Source: Flavobacteriales bacterium (GTDB taxonomy: Bacteria; Bacteroidota; Bacteroidia; Flavobacteriales; Schleiferiaceae). From it: a stretch of DNA of 64,000 bases. This document shows positions 2,628-9,362 of this stretch, in pieces; position 1 is the stretch's first letter, and the number at the start of each line of letters is the position of its first letter. The stretch covers positions 2,113,501 to 2,177,500 of the forward strand of contig CP051243.1 in assembly GCA_017795025.1 (NCBI GenBank), read 5' to 3'. The notes under the pieces were generated by a model. That model was not told the origin of the DNA. It searched no databases and saw only the letters and a list, made by a program, of their open reading frames with translations. The translations under genes and the position numbers were made by a program.

Positions 2628-2666
2628 TTTAAATTGCCTCGCAGTTTTGGTACCTTGACCCGAATT

Positions 2667-3503
2667 ATGGCCTATTCGCTCGAAAAAAAATGGGAAGCAC
2701 GTTTGCGTCGGAAGTCATGGCTAATCCCCTTGCTAAGCCTGCTTGCCCTAAGCCTACTTTACAGTGCATGGCTCTTTTGCCTTTGGGCCTTTGAAGCGGG
2801 CTATTGGGGGTTCTTGTTTTTAAGCCCCTTTATTACCCATGCCCAAATGATTATCATGGTGCATGATGGTTCGCATCGCGCTATCACCAAAAGCAAATTC
2901 GATGATTGGATTATGAATCTTGGGGGTGCCTTGTTTTTCATTCCCTTTTACGGAGAACTCTTTCGCTACTTCCACTTCATTCACCATAGCTACACGAATC
3001 AAAGTCTCGACCCACTCTGGCCTCAGGAGAAGGAAAAACTCTTTAACTGGAACCGGCAGCTTTTTGTGCTCAGTGAAATGATCCCCATTCTCTCAACCCT
3101 AATTGCCCTTTTCATGGGTCGATCACAGCGTCGGGAAAAACTAAAACGCCCTCCTTACCGCATTAACTACTTTCGAATAGTAGTAAGTACGATTATCAGT
3201 ATTGCCTTAGCGGCTTGGCTGCAAGCCTCGGCCTGGTTTGTTATCCTTAATCTTTTAGGAGCCAGCTTATTGGCCAAAGTTCGTAATTGGTGCGAGCACA
3301 CCGGTTTTGAGGACAAGGAAAGTAATACCTACTGGTTCCCCTTGGGTATGGGGGTAGGCAATCATGCTGCTCATCACGACCAGCCCCAAATATCATGGTT
3401 AAGCCATATGATTTGCCTTTGGAACAAACCGCGCGATACCCATCCTTTAAAAACGCTGTGGCGGATGTTTATAGATCCCCATTGGAAACATTACAAAGCT
3501 TAA
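2667..3503 (+). CDS. Membrane fatty-acid desaturase family protein
   Basis: An integral-membrane di-iron desaturase/hydroxylase of 278 residues. It carries the His boxes that bind the two irons: HDGSH early, HFIHH in the middle and NHAAHH near the C-terminus, with hydrophobic segments before and between them. Such enzymes insert double bonds or hydroxyls into acyl chains or carotenoids. The exact substrate cannot be read from the sequence. An in-frame TTG at 2634 would add 11 residues, but the ATG at 2667 starts a more typical N-terminus and is preferred. It ends convergently with the CDP-alcohol phosphatidyltransferase gene with a 4-nt stop-codon overlap, and it sits beside several other lipid-type genes. 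Confidence 0.85.
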   Translation: MAYSLEKKWEARLRRKSWLIPLLSLLALSLLYSAWLFCLWAFEAGYWGFLFLSPFITHAQMIIMVHDGSHRAITKSKFDDWIMNLGGALFFIPFYGELFRYFHFIHHSYTNQSLDPLWPQEKEKLFNWNRQLFVLSEMIPILSTLIALFMGRSQRREKLKRPPYRINYFRIVVSTIISIALAAWLQASAWFVILNLLGASLLAKVRNWCEHTGFEDKESNTYWFPLGMGVGNHAAHHDQPQISWLSHMICLWNKPRDTHPLKTLWRMFIDPHWKHYKA

Positions 3504-4066
3504 GTCTTACCCTTTAGCACCCAATAAAGTCCCTTTAAATTAGAGCGTGGTTCTTTTAAGAGGAACTGTAAAATCAGGTGCTCGGTAAAAGCGATGTATC
3601 CCGAAGCCAGCATCACAAAATAAAAGGGGGTCCAAAAACCGAAAGCGAAGAGGGTAAAAAACCAGGTTCCTTGAATATAGCCGCCGATCTTCCAGGAATA
3701 AAGGTGAAAGCTAGGAAAGCGGCCATATCGCACTAGAGGCAAGGTCTCACAAAGCACAAATAAAGCCATGAAAGTAAATAGGCTGGGATAATAAGGGGCT
3801 AAATCGGCCTGCTTAAAAACAAAAATCCCGGTAAAACTTAAGATATAAGTTCCCACATCAGCGAGAGAATCTAAGCGGGCTCCGAACTCTGTTTCTAAAT
3901 TAAAACGTCGCGCAATGAAGCCATCTAAAATATCCGTGACAAGATTGATGCAGAAAAACCAAGTAAATAAGCTTTCCCAGCCTTGGTAAGCAAAGAGTAC
4001 CAAAACCGGAAACATTAAAAGCCGGTAAAGCGAAATTAGGTTAGGGAGATTCCAAACCACTTTCAT
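3500..4066 (-). CDS. CDP-alcohol phosphatidyltransferase family protein
   Basis: An integral-membrane enzyme of 188 residues that joins a CDP-linked lipid to an alcohol with release of CMP (the phosphatidylglycerophosphate, phosphatidylserine and archaetidyl-alcohol synthase superfamily). The signature D-x2-DG-x2-AR-x8-G-x3-D-x3-D is perfect: Asp45, Asp48-Gly49, Ala52-Arg53, Gly62, Asp66 and Asp70. The ATG at 4066 is chosen because the family normally begins with an NLPNLISLYR-like segment. An upstream ATG at 4159 would add a 31-residue hydrophobic leader. The acceptor alcohol cannot be told from the sequence. The nearby CDP-archaeol-synthase-like and UbiA genes raise the possibility of an isoprenoid CDP-lipid as donor, which is inference. 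Confidence 0.88.
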   Translation of the reverse strand: MKVVWNLPNLISLYRLLMFPVLVLFAYQGWESLFTWFFCINLVTDILDGFIARRFNLETEFGARLDSLADVGTYILSFTGIFVFKQADLAPYYPSLFTFMALFVLCETLPLVRYGRFPSFHLYSWKIGGYIQGTWFFTLFAFGFWTPFYFVMLASGYIAFTEHLILQFLLKEPRSNLKGLYWVLKGKT

Positions 4067-4168
4067 AATCTTTTCGAGGTTTAGGTTTATAGCCTTAGCT
4101 TTTCCTAGTATTGCAAGGCAAACAATGGCTAAAAGGTAGCCAAAATACCTTAGGAACAACTAAACCGG

Positions 4169-4741
4169 ATGCTTCAAATGGAATTATACCTCGTCATTTT
4201 TGGTATGCTAATTATTGGCAGCTCTGGGCTTAGTTTACAAATTTTCTTTCGCAACCAAAATTCGGAAGCAAAGCCGACTAGCGAGAACACCTTGTCGTAT
4301 TTCCGCCTTTTAATACCCCTGGGTATGCTCTTGGCCTTTGGGGTTTATTACTTCGATTACGGAAGCTTTACTGCACCTAATTGGACTTTGATCTTAGGCA
4401 TAGGGCTTTATCTTTTAGGCATGCTCCTGCGCTGGTACGCCGTTTGGCGACTTAAGCATTTCTTTACGGTGCAGTTGGCTATTCAAAAAGACCATCGTCT
4501 AATCCATACCGGTTTATTTAAGTATATCCGTCACCCGAGTTACCTCGGCATGCTCACCTATTTTTTAGGTTTGGGGCTCATCATGCACAATTTCCTGAGC
4601 CTGTTCATCATGCTGGTTTTCGCCTGGCTTGCCATTAGGTCTCGAATTAGAGCCGAAGAAAAATTATTGCTACTGCATTTTGGGGAGGAATACCTCCAAT
4701 ATCAAAAGTCGACTAAGCGTCTTATTCCCTTTATTTTTTAA
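4169..4741 (+). CDS. Isoprenylcysteine carboxyl methyltransferase (ICMT)-like membrane protein
   Basis: A 190-residue protein with about five hydrophobic helices. The C-terminal half has the ICMT/PEMT-type SAM-binding pattern: HRLIHTGLFKYIRHPSYLG, then a further helix, then a conserved charged stretch (RIRAEEKLLLLHFGEEYLQY). The RHPxY and EE...F...Y elements are the usual hallmarks. Family members methylate isoprenyl-cysteine, phosphatidylethanolamine or other membrane substrates; bacterial members are mostly uncharacterised. It starts divergently from the CDP-alcohol phosphatidyltransferase and is followed after a single nucleotide by the small protein at 4743, so the two are probably co-transcribed. 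Confidence 0.85.
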   Translation: MLQMELYLVIFGMLIIGSSGLSLQIFFRNQNSEAKPTSENTLSYFRLLIPLGMLLAFGVYYFDYGSFTAPNWTLILGIGLYLLGMLLRWYAVWRLKHFFTVQLAIQKDHRLIHTGLFKYIRHPSYLGMLTYFLGLGLIMHNFLSLFIMLVFAWLAIRSRIRAEEKLLLLHFGEEYLQYQKSTKRLIPFIF

Positions 4742-4742
4742 G

Positions 4743-5273
4743 ATGGAGCAAAAGTTTATTTGGATCCGCATCTGGCATGGCTATCTGCGAAAGCAAAGCG
4801 GCCGGCACCACCCCAAGGAGTTGGGAGGTTTATTTGGTGGCCATGTGGTGATGGAAATCAATGACTTTTGTTATGGCTTTTTTTACCGCGATCGCAAGAG
4901 GATTCATTTGCTCAGCAAAAAACCATTTAATTGCGAGTTTCAAAAGCAAACTGTGGCGGAATGGGAGGACATTGTAAAGGATAAGAAGGAAACAAAAATT
5001 CGGATTCCGCTAAGCGAGATGGAGTTGAACCAGCTTGAAGAATTTTACCAAAAAGCCCTGCAAAACCCTCCTTACGATTACACTATGTTGGGACAACGCT
5101 GTGCTTCTTCCGTTTACTGTTTGCTAAAGGATTTAGCATTAATAAGTGGTGGCCATTATTACTGGAACGCCTTTTACCCTGGAGCTTTACGGCGTCACCT
5201 TCTTCGAGAAGCTAAAAAACAGCATTGGGAAGTAAGGCAAAAGCCTGGGGCCAAAGATCGCCTCTGGGCCTAA
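4743..5273 (+). CDS. Hypothetical protein, possible permuted papain-like (LRAT/NlpC type) fold
   Basis: A 176-residue protein with no signal peptide. The ATG at 4743 lies one nucleotide after the stop of the ICMT-like gene; the frame is open further upstream only through that gene. I do not recognise it with certainty. The layout GGHVVMEI (His at about 34) followed much later by GQRCASSVYCLL (Cys near 120) matches the His-before-Cys order of circularly permuted papain-like proteins such as LRAT and YiiX. Those act as acyltransferases or thiol hydrolases on lipids or peptides. This assignment is inference. The gene ends convergently with the dikinase gene with a 4-nt overlap. Confidence 0.6.
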   Translation: MEQKFIWIRIWHGYLRKQSGRHHPKELGGLFGGHVVMEINDFCYGFFYRDRKRIHLLSKKPFNCEFQKQTVAEWEDIVKDKKETKIRIPLSEMELNQLEEFYQKALQNPPYDYTMLGQRCASSVYCLLKDLALISGGHYYWNAFYPGALRRHLLREAKKQHWEVRQKPGAKDRLWA

Positions 5274-7879
5274 AAAATCACCCGCCCGGCATCCGCATCT
5301 AAAACTACCGTTTGCCCGTTCTTAAGGATCTTAGTGGCATTACTCACTCCCACTAAGGCCGGTATCCCCAATTCGCGCCCCACTATGGCGGTGTGGGAAA
5401 GCACCGATCCTTTTTCACTTATAATCCCCACCGCTTGTGTCATCAGAAACACCCAAGCGGGGTCGGTCATTTTACTGACCAAAATTTTACCCTTAATGTT
5501 CAATTCAAAACTAGGCTCATGGACTACGACTACTTCCGCTTTCACCTTCCCTTTAGATACCCCTAATCCATTAAGGCCCTCGCCATTATCTTCGGTAGTT
5601 GCGGTCGTTCTAAACCGAGGTTCCTCTCCTGCGAGGTAGGAAATTCGGTCGGGTAAATCCAAGCTTTCGAACTCTTCAAACTCCTGCTTTCGATCTTGAA
5701 CTTTCTCCTGCCAAGCTTTATCCGGCTTTCCCACGCAAAAGTGGCCTAAGTCTGCCAAGTCTAAATAAAAAACATCTTGAGCTTGCGACAAATATCCTTC
5801 TGCTTCCATCATCGCTGCCACACGCATAAATACCTGCTTTACCCTGCCGTAGGCGCGCGCCCTGGCAAAGCGCATATTCTCACGATTTTTTAAGCCGTTT
5901 CCAGCCCAAATAGCCAACACTTTAATTAGCCAAAAAGAAGGACTAATTGGCGAAAGACGTTCCCTAATGCGCTTCTGGGCCTTGTGCCGCAACTGTACTT
6001 TCCGTTCAAGATGCGCCGCTTTAGTCATGCTGCTGTTCAACTGACTTTTAATGAGTTGATACACCGCCAGAGGATCTTGTTGTAGGGAGGGAACTTCTAA
6101 CTTCAATTCGGCCAATACGCGGTCGCCATAGTGTTGCCTATGAAACTCAATTTTAGCTTGTAGGCTAGGATAGTTTATGAGCCCCTCGGGAATAGCTTTT
6201 GGTTCGCGTTCAAAAACCCTTTGCAAATGCGGGTCAGTCAAAATGCTATCCTTTATTTCCAGAAGATGTAGTACCGCTTGTTCGGATTCTATTGATTCAA
6301 ATCGACTGCTTAATTCATGAGCAAGAGCTTCGGCATCTTCAAAACCCAAAGACCTAAGGCGGGCTTGTAAAAAGCCGAAAAACTTAAAGGCTAAAAAGTC
6401 GTTGACAATGGTGATTGACCAAATGGAAAACAAGGATTTGATTGCTTCTTGATGGGCGTCCCAAATTTGCTTTCGATCTAAATCGGCCTCGCATAAGGCT
6501 TGCAAATCCGCTTCAATCTTTTTAAACCTTCTAAAGAAAAATCGTACCCTCGCGGGATGACGAAGCAACATCCAAGCAGAAGCACTTGCCATTTTTGCCA
6601 TCGACCATAGGTCGGCTAAGCCACGATTTTGGGCATCCTTTAAACCAACCGCATTTTGCCAGGCTTGGCGCGATTTCTTTGATTTAAAAACCAGGTCAAT
6701 CAGTTCGTACCAATTATCCAAGCGGTAGTAAATGCGTCCTTTATAATGGGCAATCAGTTTTTGAAAAACAGGCTCAAGTTGCTTGGTCTTGGCCCGAGGG
6801 ATCCAAAAATCCTTAGCGCAAGAAGAAAAAACTTGCTGGTAGGCCAAACGGGCCAAGCTAAAGGTAAGCGGACTACTAATACCGGGGTAGCTCTCTACGA
6901 TATTGGTATTGTCCAAAATCTGCACTTTACTAGGATCGAGCCCGCTTATAGGCCGCATCTGCAGCAGCGATAGTTGGCCATTCGCATCAAAGGCAAATTC
7001 AATATCGGCGGGCGCCTTTAGCAGTTCCTCCGCTTTTAAGAGCTCTTTAAAAATGAGGTTTACTTCTTCTCGACTTAAAACCGGACTCCCTTCTTTCGCA
7101 GAGTCTAATTCCCATTTCTCAATGGCCCCAGTTTTCGAGTTATAGTCAAGGTAATGGCGCTTTTTTTCGATGATAGCGCGGTAGCTTTCCTTCTGCCGGT
7201 CAAAGCAAAAGGTATCGGTTTCTACGGCATTAGACACTACCCCTTCCCCTAAACCATAGCCCGCCACAATAAGCGCATCAGCTAAGTTCGCGGTTTGGTC
7301 GGCCGAAAAGGCCACCCCCGATTTATAGGCTGGAACCATTTCTTGAAAAATCACCGCAAAAGAAAAAGGCTCCCTGGCCAATCCCATTTTTTGTCGGTAG
7401 CGCCCAATCCCATAAGAATAAGCCGAAGCAATACACTTCAAAATTGCTTGCTCTCGAGCTTGAGCTTGGACATATAAGAAGCTATCGTATTGCCCGGCAA
7501 AAGAGGCTTGGGCGAGGTCTTCCATACTTCCCGAAGAACGAATGGCCAAACCGGACTTTTCCCCAAAACAATCCTTAAGCTTTTGCTCGATTTCTTGCGA
7601 GAGCTTTGGACTTAGTTGCAGCGATTGAATAGCCTGCTGTAATTCCGCCGCCGCTGGAGCTAAGACCTCCTCCGATTCTTGAGTTAAGGCCGATTCATAG
7701 GCTTTTATCTGATCGTGAAGTGGCGCTAAGATGGCCGAAACACCATCTGCCGAAAGGCAAAAAAAAGCAGGCACATTGAGGCCCGCCTCTCGCATTTTAA
7801 CCAAGTTAAAGGCTTTAGCACCGATCTTATTAATAGCCGCATGGGCTGATCCATATTTTGGCCCCAGTAAATGCGACAT
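5270..7879 (-). CDS. PEP-synthase/rifampicin-phosphotransferase-like ATP-grasp dikinase
   Basis: An 869-residue protein with the three-part layout of the PEP synthase/rifampicin phosphotransferase superfamily. Residues 1 to about 320 form a pyruvate-phosphate-dikinase ATP-grasp domain: NKIGAKAFNLVKM, the AIRSSGSMEDLAQASFAGQ nucleotide loop, GYGLGEGVVSNAV, and DIEFAF...LLQMRPI. A long central domain begins with VESYPGISSPLTFS, an element typical of the RPH and PigC branch. The C-terminal swivelling domain carries the phosphoryl-accepting His in GSVLSHTAIVGRELGIPALVG. All key residues look intact. Length and layout fit RPH-type enzymes better than housekeeping PpsA. The start overlaps the UbiA stop by one base (TAATG), so the two are translationally coupled. 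The acceptor molecule is unknown. Confidence 0.85.
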   Translation of the reverse strand: MSHLLGPKYGSAHAAINKIGAKAFNLVKMREAGLNVPAFFCLSADGVSAILAPLHDQIKAYESALTQESEEVLAPAAAELQQAIQSLQLSPKLSQEIEQKLKDCFGEKSGLAIRSSGSMEDLAQASFAGQYDSFLYVQAQAREQAILKCIASAYSYGIGRYRQKMGLAREPFSFAVIFQEMVPAYKSGVAFSADQTANLADALIVAGYGLGEGVVSNAVETDTFCFDRQKESYRAIIEKKRHYLDYNSKTGAIEKWELDSAKEGSPVLSREEVNLIFKELLKAEELLKAPADIEFAFDANGQLSLLQMRPISGLDPSKVQILDNTNIVESYPGISSPLTFSLARLAYQQVFSSCAKDFWIPRAKTKQLEPVFQKLIAHYKGRIYYRLDNWYELIDLVFKSKKSRQAWQNAVGLKDAQNRGLADLWSMAKMASASAWMLLRHPARVRFFFRRFKKIEADLQALCEADLDRKQIWDAHQEAIKSLFSIWSITIVNDFLAFKFFGFLQARLRSLGFEDAEALAHELSSRFESIESEQAVLHLLEIKDSILTDPHLQRVFEREPKAIPEGLINYPSLQAKIEFHRQHYGDRVLAELKLEVPSLQQDPLAVYQLIKSQLNSSMTKAAHLERKVQLRHKAQKRIRERLSPISPSFWLIKVLAIWAGNGLKNRENMRFARARAYGRVKQVFMRVAAMMEAEGYLSQAQDVFYLDLADLGHFCVGKPDKAWQEKVQDRKQEFEEFESLDLPDRISYLAGEEPRFRTTATTEDNGEGLNGLGVSKGKVKAEVVVVHEPSFELNIKGKILVSKMTDPAWVFLMTQAVGIISEKGSVLSHTAIVGRELGIPALVGVSNATKILKNGQTVVLDADAGRVIF

Positions 7880-8823
7880 TAAAGCGCTAAGCTAAGTTCC
7901 CTTTGCAGAATGATGTGGATCAAGAGGTTGAGAAAGAGCATGGTGGTGAATATCATAGCTCCGTTCTTCAAAATATTATGCTGGTTTATGGGCTTAAAAT
8001 AAAAGCGCAGGTATACCCAGAAAGCATAGAGCATAATGAGGGCGGCAATGGGGTAATACGAAATTCCTAATTGCATGGTGTGGGCCATATAAAAACTCAG
8101 GCCACCAGCTAGGAGGAGTGGACTAAAGGCGATTAAACAAGCCTTTTTTGCACCAAAAATCATGGAGAAAGTTTCGTAATCGGTTTCCTTATCCGCCGAA
8201 CGGATTTTTCGGGACACCTCCCAGGAAGTTACAGGCAAGGCGAAGATGAGAACCAAGATGAATTGGTTCCAACCAAAATCCTCATAATAACCGCCGGCAG
8301 CCATCCCCGTATGCAGGAGGTAAAAGTTAATCATGTAAGGAATAGGCTGATGGGTAGCCATGGTTAGAAAGACCTTCTCGCGGTGAATTTTTTCGGCAAA
8401 GAACCATTGATAGGTACCAAAGAGGTAAATTAAAACCACGGCAAAAACGAGGAGCGTATCGGGTGCCAGCCAAACATTTATGCCAATTAAAACAGCCGTT
8501 GAAAGCATCATCAAGGCTAGGATATCCTTTTTAAGCACCAACTTTCTAGGGGTGGATCGATGCGGGAAGATTTGCTTGTCTAAATCAAAATCCTTGAGGT
8601 CATCGAAGGTTCGCATGAGCAGCATCATAAAAAAGGCCGAAATAATTCCCGCCAGGCCGTAGTAATCAAAAATCAAATCTTGCCCAACCAAGGCTTGCGC
8701 CGAAAAATTTAAACAGAAATAAAGGGCAATGATATAGGGCAGGTAAACCAGCACGGGAAACATTTCGTCGGTGTAAATTTTCCAGCGCTTGAGCATGTAC
8801 TTTGGAGTAGCAGAATCGTTCAT
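7879..8823 (-). CDS. UbiA-superfamily prenyltransferase
   Basis: A 314-residue protein with about eight or nine membrane helices. The first Asp-rich motif reads FDDLKDFDLDK (Asp74, 75, 78, 80, 82) and is followed by the typical PHRSTPRK loop. The second conserved loop, WEVSRKIRSADKETDYETFS (about 201 to 220), is equivalent to the second UbiA motif. UbiA enzymes transfer isoprenyl chains to aromatic rings, heme, or glycerol derivatives (geranylgeranylglyceryl phosphate in archaea). The gene lies between the CDP-archaeol-synthase-like gene (14-nt gap) and the dikinase gene (1-nt overlap). This points away from menaquinone synthesis and towards a lipid or specialised product, although substrate specificity cannot be read from the sequence. 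Confidence 0.85.
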   Translation of the reverse strand: MNDSATPKYMLKRWKIYTDEMFPVLVYLPYIIALYFCLNFSAQALVGQDLIFDYYGLAGIISAFFMMLLMRTFDDLKDFDLDKQIFPHRSTPRKLVLKKDILALMMLSTAVLIGINVWLAPDTLLVFAVVLIYLFGTYQWFFAEKIHREKVFLTMATHQPIPYMINFYLLHTGMAAGGYYEDFGWNQFILVLIFALPVTSWEVSRKIRSADKETDYETFSMIFGAKKACLIAFSPLLLAGGLSFYMAHTMQLGISYYPIAALIMLYAFWVYLRFYFKPINQHNILKNGAMIFTTMLFLNLLIHIILQRELSLAL

Positions 8824-8837
8824 GGTTTGAGTTTAGG

Positions 8838-9362
8838 TTAAACGGCCTTCTTAATTTTTAAGAGAAAAAGAAGGTAGGAAAAGGTATAATGCAATCCTAA
8901 GCTTAAAAGGTAGAGCATAAAAAGATGGCTTAAGGAGAGCGAAAAGAAAAGTCCGAAAAAAATAAGGATGCCAATAATGGAATCCGATTTGTCGATAAAC
9001 AATTGCAGGCGGGGGTACTTCTTCGATTTACCACCTGGTGGAATACCCAGTCTTCTTTTTAGGTAAGAATTCGGAAGTTCGAATAGCAGGTAAAACAGGC
9101 CCAGTCCGATACCCAGTAACCACATTTGAAAGGGCAACTGCCCAAACGGACCAAAGAGCGCGTAAAAAAGCCAACAGAAAAAGCCGCTGGCTAGCGGTAA
9201 GACAACAAAGGCCCGCCAAGTTTTATTGGGCCCAAATGCCTTGGCGGCGATGGGCTTAGCTAAGTTGGGAAACCAATTCCACTTTACCACTAACATGTGT
9301 AATACATTGGCGGCAATCATGGGCAGGACAAGTAAAAAGAGGTCGAGCTCGTAAGGAATCAT
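8838..9362 (-). CDS. CDP-archaeol synthase (CarS)-like membrane protein
   Basis: A 174-residue protein, almost entirely hydrophobic helices, with the conserved loops of the CarS/DUF46 family. FGPNKTWRAF (residues 43 to 52) corresponds to the archaeal GDGKTWRG element. ELPNSYLKRRLG (95 to 106) matches the lipid-facing loop with its KRR triplet. FIDKSDSIIG (122 to 131) is the family's D-x2-D pair. Archaeal CarS activates digeranylgeranylglyceryl phosphate with CTP. The length matches the archaeal family, but the first loop reads NKTWR rather than GKTWR. It is the first gene of a minus-strand trio with UbiA and the dikinase. Bacterial homologues are poorly characterised. Confidence 0.75.
   Translation of the reverse strand: MIPYELDLFLLVLPMIAANVLHMLVVKWNWFPNLAKPIAAKAFGPNKTWRAFVVLPLASGFFCWLFYALFGPFGQLPFQMWLLGIGLGLFYLLFELPNSYLKRRLGIPPGGKSKKYPRLQLFIDKSDSIIGILIFFGLFFSLSLSHLFMLYLLSLGLHYTFSYLLFLLKIKKAV

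Follow-up and report, generated by a model that had tools for sequence, protein, structure and literature searches.

The gene block and its CarS-like protein

The region under study lies in a 64,000-nucleotide stretch (the window) of contig CP051243.1 from a marine Flavobacteriales bacterium (GCA_017795025.1, positions 2,113,501 to 2,177,500), whose genome is one contig of 3.44 Mb. A block of seven genes in the window (Table 1) includes one for a small integral-membrane protein resembling CDP-archaeol synthase (CarS), which is regarded as the archaeal means of activating phospholipids. The original prediction, made from the DNA letters alone, had placed the gene for this 174-residue protein 14 nt upstream of that for a UbiA-superfamily transferase, with a CDP-alcohol phosphatidyltransferase of perfect motif nearby, and had proposed that the three cover the prenylation, CDP-activation and headgroup steps of an isoprenoid phospholipid pathway. 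From the coordinates of the open reading frames (ORFs), both genes were present on the minus strand with exactly this gap, and the gene for the CDP-alcohol transferase, which carries the full motif, ends 3.7 kb from the UbiA gene. A third co-directional gene, overlooked in the prediction, encodes an RPH-type phosphotransferase and shares 1 nt with the end of its neighbour, the UbiA gene.

The CarS-like ORF contains the motifs FGPNKTWR, ELPNS..KRRLG and DKSD, bearing out the NKTWR, KRRLG and D-x2-D loops that had been read in it. No usable match was obtained when the single CarS-like and UbiA proteins were used as phmmer queries against the PDB. An alignment of 53 CarS-like family members (A3) was the source of both a profile and a predicted structure. 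The profile gave CDP-archaeol synthase (5guf) as its sole match in the PDB (E = 2.8e-6), and the profile alignment placed the motifs in the same order in both, namely K-T, then D/E..S..KRRLG, then D-x2-D. The predicted model (mean pLDDT 95.1) superimposed on 5guf with a Z-score of 13.5 and a root-mean-square deviation (rmsd) of 2.7 Å over 144 aligned residues, the runner-up being CdsA (4q2g) with Z 7.3 and an rmsd of 3.7 over 133 residues. Foldseek also ranked 5guf first, with a probability of 1.00 but a weak E-value of 0.14. Within the family, 52 of the 53 members matched Pfam family PF01864 at E ≤ 1 (best 7.6e-16), and the D-x2-D-S motif, which was not a seed of the genome scan described below, was kept in 75 of 76 CarS-like ORFs. 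Based on the alignment and the predicted model, the fold and motif layout of the window protein are those of CarS, and it is a probable CTP:lipid-phosphate cytidylyltransferase.

Recurrent neighbours and their distribution

Named genomes were scanned with a KTWR plus ELPNS pattern, and the best 80 of 372 confirmed places were taken as CarS-like loci; only 45 of these are at least 20 kb and many are short. Gene families were defined as BLAST clusters and named by Pfam searches of representatives, the labels phytol-kinase-like, RND and permuted-papain being assigned by eye. In 75 loci CarS was scored as an ORF of its own; it is fused to the CDP-alcohol transferase in L105, L107 and L123 and was masked by ORF picking in L104 and L126.

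The families found near the CarS-like gene were an HMG-CoA reductase (HMGR)-like protein (51 of the 80 loci), the phosphotransferase (50), the CDP-alcohol transferase (45), UbiA and a GNAT-like protein (27 each), an AMP-ligase (20) and a small UbiA-like protein, c8 (12). The CDP-alcohol transferase gene directly adjoins CarS in many cases, downstream in 26 and upstream in 12 of the 75 loci, and the two form one uninterrupted ORF in two Zooshikella loci and one Endozoicomonas locus. This fusion is the strongest sign that both proteins act in sequence. In HdN1 (L137) the AMP-ligase is itself fused to a CDP-alcohol transferase, one more beyond the clustered 45.

Two further records of Bacteroidota, L094 and L111, contain all seven window genes (2634-9362) in a span of about 7 kb, the phosphotransferase of L111 being split over two ORFs. 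In L064, the CarS gene, the UbiA gene and the start of the phosphotransferase gene stand in window order, with CarS 66% and UbiA 85% identical. Photorhabdus, Atopomonas and Agitococcus share the order UbiA, HMGR:kinase, phosphotransferase, GNAT, AMP-ligase, CDP-alcohol transferase, CarS. A minimal module of HMGR:kinase, CarS and CDP-alcohol transferase was present in Kordia and in a single-contig congener (G059), both without the window-type UbiA. The same partners turn up next to CarS-like genes in Bacteroidota, Pseudomonadota and Bdellovibrionota records, and some are fused; on this basis the linkage of these families is supported, as is the predicted functional link between the CarS-like protein, UbiA and the CDP-alcohol transferase.

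In all 51 loci with an HMGR-like protein it is fused to a kinase, in ORFs of 602-991 aa. The kinase motifs HxDxNxxN and DWE were present in 50 and 51 of these, respectively. Alignment to the HMGR chains 6hr7 and 8ecg, with the residue numbering and roles (S684, H752, catalytic tetrad) that we take to be those of human HMGR, showed the catalytic Lys and Asp in 51/51 and the Glu and His in 49/51 (two gaps each). At two pocket positions, that of S684 was Glu or Asp and that of H752 was Asn in 51/51, and the DAMGMN motif read GQN in 50/51. R590, D690 and K692 were retained, so that a substrate related to HMG-CoA is still possible. Three HMGR-like proteins scored 302.8, 267.7 and 322.8 against the class I cut-off of 441.8, one of them being the copy from a second operon of the studied genome, which also has a separate class II HMGR (280.7, above the cut-off of 259.95).

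In that second operon the HMGR-like protein is unfused, with Glu at the S684 position and His kept at the H752 position. The operon order was conserved in four relatives (L158-L161), with an AMP-ligase added in three. UbiA and phosphotransferase genes are adjacent in both operons of the genome. The phytol-kinase-like protein was considered as a CarS homologue and dropped, the profile probability being 5.9%. DUF3419 is, we assume, the Pfam family that includes the betaine-lipid enzyme BtaA. The exchange of CarS and CDP-alcohol transferase for DUF3419 and the phytol-kinase-like protein suggests that the two operons combine one shared core with different headgroup modules, and the second operon is possibly a betaine-type lipid counterpart.

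In a search of the order, CarS-like genes were found in 8 of 296 genomes, seven of them firm (the studied genome included) and the eighth (G034) weak at E = 9.7e-4. CarS-like genes and UbiA occurred in 7 and 11 genomes of the order, respectively, four of them shared (Fisher p = 3.5e-5, which ignores kinship and lends weak support). A phylum-wide search (query A1) matched in 57 of 395; besides the gene itself all matches were weak (best 4.9e-7) and were not counted as CarS-like. Mostly ORFs of about 270-300 aa, they are probably CdsA.

Two further arrangements were observed. In L113, L097, L138 and other small genomes of Schleiferiaceae or Cryomorphaceae type, a CarS-like and CDP-alcohol transferase pair was present with no adjoining HMGR or UbiA gene, the pair coming after a gene that in L113 encodes a patatin-like phospholipase. 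The c8 protein (median 242 aa; in L067, L066, L069 and others) has a first loop without one Asp and appears to be a distant UbiA relative (94.4%), the single copy searched giving no Pfam match; its clusters also hold a methyltransferase, a PlsC-type acyltransferase and a desaturase.

Among the other window genes, the CDP-alcohol transferase matched PF01066 with 77.7 bits (cut-off 22) and most resembled PgsA (56.2 bits, cut-off 109.1). The phosphotransferase starts with a PPDK_N domain and ends with a swivelling-His domain, an order that RPH and PigC presumably share, and Pfam detected no domain for binding phosphoenolpyruvate (PEP) in it. The swivelling-His motif was recovered by pattern in 48 of 49 long copies, the 49th reading SHGSIV. 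The window copy scored below the equivalog cut-offs for RPH (251.6 of 999 bits), PigC (280.5 of 1300) and RedH (243.9 of 1350), and its top model was a PEP-synthase-named one (558 of 883). The protein without a Pfam match we take, by eye, to be permuted-papain-like.

Table 1. Features of the window and of related loci; family counts refer to the 80 CarS-like loci
Feature	Position	Strand	Length	Basis
Fatty-acid desaturase-family protein	2634-3503	plus	289 aa	Pfam; family in 10/80 loci
CDP-alcohol phosphatidyltransferase, full DGxxAR(8)GxxxDxxxD	3500-4159	minus	219-aa ORF	Pfam, NCBIfam, motif
ICMT/PEMT-type membrane methyltransferase	4169-4741	plus	190 aa	Pfam; family in 10/80 loci
Conserved protein without Pfam match	4743-5273	plus	176 aa	Family in 7/80 loci
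ATP phosphotransferase, RPH-type	5270-7879	minus	869 aa	PPDK_N N-terminal, central domain, C-terminal swivelling-His
UbiA-superfamily transferase, nearest NCBIfam PRK13592	7879-8823	minus	314 aa	Pfam, NCBIfam, model, profile, tree
CarS-like integral-membrane protein	8838-9362	minus	174 aa	Pfam, NCBIfam, family profile, predicted model
Second operon: HMGR-like, UbiA, RPH-type phosphotransferase, DUF3419, phytol-kinase-like, GNAT	G000:C1:1727988-1735623 (L029:3988-11623)			Phytol-kinase-like label by eye
CDP-alcohol transferase:CarS-like fused ORF (Zooshikella)	L105:9305-10510			CDP-alcohol domain also by Pfam
CDP-alcohol transferase:CarS-like fused ORF (Zooshikella)	L107:9302-10510			CDP-alcohol domain also by Pfam
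CDP-alcohol transferase:CarS-like fused ORF (Endozoicomonas)	L123:9341-10510			CDP-alcohol domain also by Pfam

A proposed lipid-assembly pathway and its alternatives

Judged from sequence, the block is fairly likely to be part of a widespread lipid-assembly cluster whose pathway runs parallel to CdsA/PssA; a separate CdsA-like gene (with Psd adjoining, by eye) and a PssA-like gene are present in the genome. From the observed homology, fold, motifs, linkage, fusions and phyletic pattern, we infer the following reactions and their order. A lipid alcohol would be phosphorylated by the kinase domain or by the RPH-type phosphotransferase, the CarS-like enzyme would move CMP from CTP onto the resulting lipid phosphate, and the CDP-alcohol phosphatidyltransferase would exchange the CMP of this CDP-lipid for a polar headgroup to give a phospholipid. 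In the studied genome, UbiA and the RPH-type phosphotransferase may jointly build the lipid alcohol and then phosphorylate it. In most relatives, the HMGR-derived reductase fused to a kinase could have an analogous role, converting an acyl-thioester to the alcohol and then to the alcohol phosphate, and it is this reductase-kinase that probably makes the lipid phosphate there. We see no need for the lipid to be archaeol. Of the three predicted steps, CDP activation and headgroup transfer are retained, while prenylation by the adjacent UbiA protein as a digeranylgeranylglyceryl phosphate (DGGGP) synthase is opposed by its model score, given below.

Several observations weigh against this explanation. 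Taken alone, the window CarS-like protein is a weak match to its models, with 17.2 bits on PF01864 (cut-off 22) and 34.9 bits on the CarS equivalog PRK04032 (cut-off 148), and one Asp of the CarS motif is replaced by Glu in the profile alignment of the family to 5guf. Conservation of KTWR and ELPNS is partly by construction, both having been scan seeds. The window CDP-alcohol transferase lies outside the CarS transcription unit, with convergent plus-strand genes intervening, and the search of this genome found no HMGR:kinase fusion, only the HMGR part alone in the second operon. Five partner families were counted across the 80 loci: in nine loci the CDP-alcohol transferase was the only one present, and five loci had none. 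Outside the studied genome, no firm CarS-like match was found in 394 genomes across the phylum.

Carried further, the same scheme tentatively points to phospholipids of several phyla that are based neither on diacylglycerol nor on archaeol. These would be made by the HMGR-derived reductase acting on an acyl-thioester to give an alcohol, the fused kinase or RPH-type enzyme, the CarS homologue and the CDP-alcohol transferase (sometimes CarS-fused), and the sister operon would yield the corresponding lipid without phosphate, its headgroup being of the homoserine type.

It is also conceivable, if unlikely, that the cluster makes not a bulk membrane lipid but a secondary metabolite, a small molecule that is prenylated, CDP-activated or linked by a phosphodiester. 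The patchy spread within the order, the occurrence of the cluster in Photorhabdus and Zooshikella, a phosphotransferase that resembles PigC and RedH (below their cut-offs) and the presence of UbiA are consistent with such a product. However, the core enzymes are of the CDP-phospholipid type and common to several phyla, acyltransferase and desaturase partners occur in some clusters, and no polyketide synthase or non-ribosomal peptide synthetase core was seen among the recurrent families by eye, no dedicated search having been made.

An archaeal-type ether lipid, along the lines of the original prediction, would require a geranylgeranylglyceryl phosphate (GGGP) synthase (PcrB) and a UbiA enzyme that attaches the second prenyl chain; the CarS-like enzyme would then form CDP-archaeol, and the CDP-alcohol transferase would supply the headgroup. 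The membership of the window UbiA protein in the superfamily is firm (PF01040, 44.1 bits, cut-off 34.2), but its best NCBIfam match, PRK13592, a model of unassigned function, reached 112.5 bits against a cut-off of 443, and the DGGGP-synthase model PRK12882 gave 27.2 against 296. The two Asp-rich loops noted earlier fared differently: the first was conserved in 29/29 clustered UbiA proteins, that of the window included, whereas the second is altered in this family, reading R-K where DGGGP synthase has K-D. A Photorhabdus member of the group clears the cut-off of PRK05951, another unassigned model (430 against 239). By structure the protein was nevertheless closest to DGGGP synthase: the predicted model (pLDDT 89.3) fitted 6m31 best, with Z 20.1 and an rmsd of 3.7 over 277 residues, and the family profile also found DGGGP synthase best in the PDB (E = 9.8e-8; next, chlorophyll synthase at 1.5e-6), although few UbiA folds have been solved. 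A UbiA tree set the window gene apart from the DGGGP-synthase-like genes of its own genome, with weak deep support (82/68) and long branches, and did not firmly place the gene.

The genome itself offers better candidates for this route, as judged from their sequences. It holds seven UbiA genes, namely that of the window, MenA, CyoE, a DPPR-like gene, two DGGGP-synthase-like genes and a second member of the window group. The two DGGGP-synthase-like proteins (L028 and L026) scored 223 and 110 bits on the DGGGP-synthase-named model PRK12872.1-1 (cut-off 278), and the L026 gene adjoins genes for a GHMP kinase and diphosphomevalonate decarboxylase. A GGGP synthase, the absence of which would have counted against the prediction, was found at G000:C1:3227997-3228659, with one DGGGP-synthase-like gene about 31 kb away. 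These genes, together with the CarS fold of the window protein, favour an archaeal-type lipid, and the CarS-like enzyme would fill a gap noted in Candidatus Cloacimonetes, whose metagenome-assembled genomes (MAGs) are thought capable of archaeal-type lipids with CarS undetected, according to the part of the source consulted (PMC7852524).

On the other hand, PcrB and the DGGGP-synthase-like genes are far from the CarS-like gene in this genome, and the partners are not constant elsewhere. Of 19 CarS-like genomes, seven had a clear GGGP synthase and seven had no match: HdN1 (its record titled complete), Zooshikella, Polaribacter filamentus, three Bdellovibrionota and the L094 MAG. The other five gave only weak, partial or stop-broken matches, G642 (Photorhabdus thracensis, in-frame stop) and G647 (47 residues) exceeding the Pfam cut-off and G644, G646 and G648 falling below it. 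The window-type UbiA was present in 14 of 29 CarS-like genomes and absent from 15, including the single-contig G059, although three of the 15 (L067, L069, L070) carry c8 instead; in this count, which does not include L084, G160 and L080 are probably one genome, and absence from a draft may be a gap. Neither enzyme therefore appears to be generally required, which speaks against the making of archaeal lipids as the function that all carriers share. We regard the archaeal route as improbable for the cluster, but the CarS-like enzyme of this particular genome may still accept DGGGP.

Least credible is that the CarS-like protein is a mere second CDP-diacylglycerol synthase for phosphatidylglycerol and cardiolipin among coincidental neighbours: the window CDP-alcohol transferase is nearest PgsA and the genome encodes just one other such enzyme, which is PssA-like, but a CdsA-like gene is already present and the neighbours recur across phyla, including families without a known place in phosphatidylglycerol synthesis.

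Comparison with known systems

The lipid-assembly cluster favoured here consists of single parts from known families, and their combination appears new. No description of it was found in the accessible parts of the open-licence PubMed Central papers searched, and it may be described elsewhere; the nearest paper (PMC12419801), in the part available, deals with other neighbourhoods. Until its product is known, the cluster is rated as a variant of CDP-alcohol lipid synthesis. A CarS-fold enzyme in a conserved bacterial lipid cluster, often near a repurposed HMGR, points to a membrane lipid that has perhaps never been looked for, and the few genes of the module, which culturable bacteria such as Kordia periserrulae, Polaribacter filamentus and Aestuariivivens carry in a small version, offer a means to find it.

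Compared with class I HMGR, the HMGR-like proteins share the fold family and the catalytic Glu, Lys, Asp and His; they differ in their fusion to an APH-type kinase, in the changes at S684 and H752 (51/51) and in scores below the equivalog cut-off (3/3). The window phosphotransferase shares its first and last domains with RPH, PigC, RedH and PEP synthase and falls under all their equivalog cut-offs, with no PEP-binding domain found. DGGGP synthase (6m31, 7bpu) has the same UbiA fold as the window UbiA protein and is its top structural and profile match in the PDB, but identity is 14%, the first-motif Asn is Asp and one second-motif Asp is Lys in the window group, and the protein is far under the DGGGP-synthase cut-offs.

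Judged by the available parts of both papers, the archaeal-lipid genes of Cloacimonetes (PMC7852524) resemble the present case as bacterial GGGP synthase and UbiA genes in the Fibrobacteres–Chlorobi–Bacteroidetes (FCB) group and differ in that CarS was undetected there, and Ubi-297/EboC (PMC9235831) is likewise a UbiA protein of the FCB group, the ebo cluster having other partner genes. CarS itself (5guf; PF01864) shares with the window protein the fold, K-T, S..KRRLG and D-x2-D, and no other PDB protein was matched by the family profile. It differs in 20% identity in the structural alignment, in the Asp that is Glu in the CarS-like family, in the low equivalog score of the window protein and in an archaeal pathway with other partner genes.

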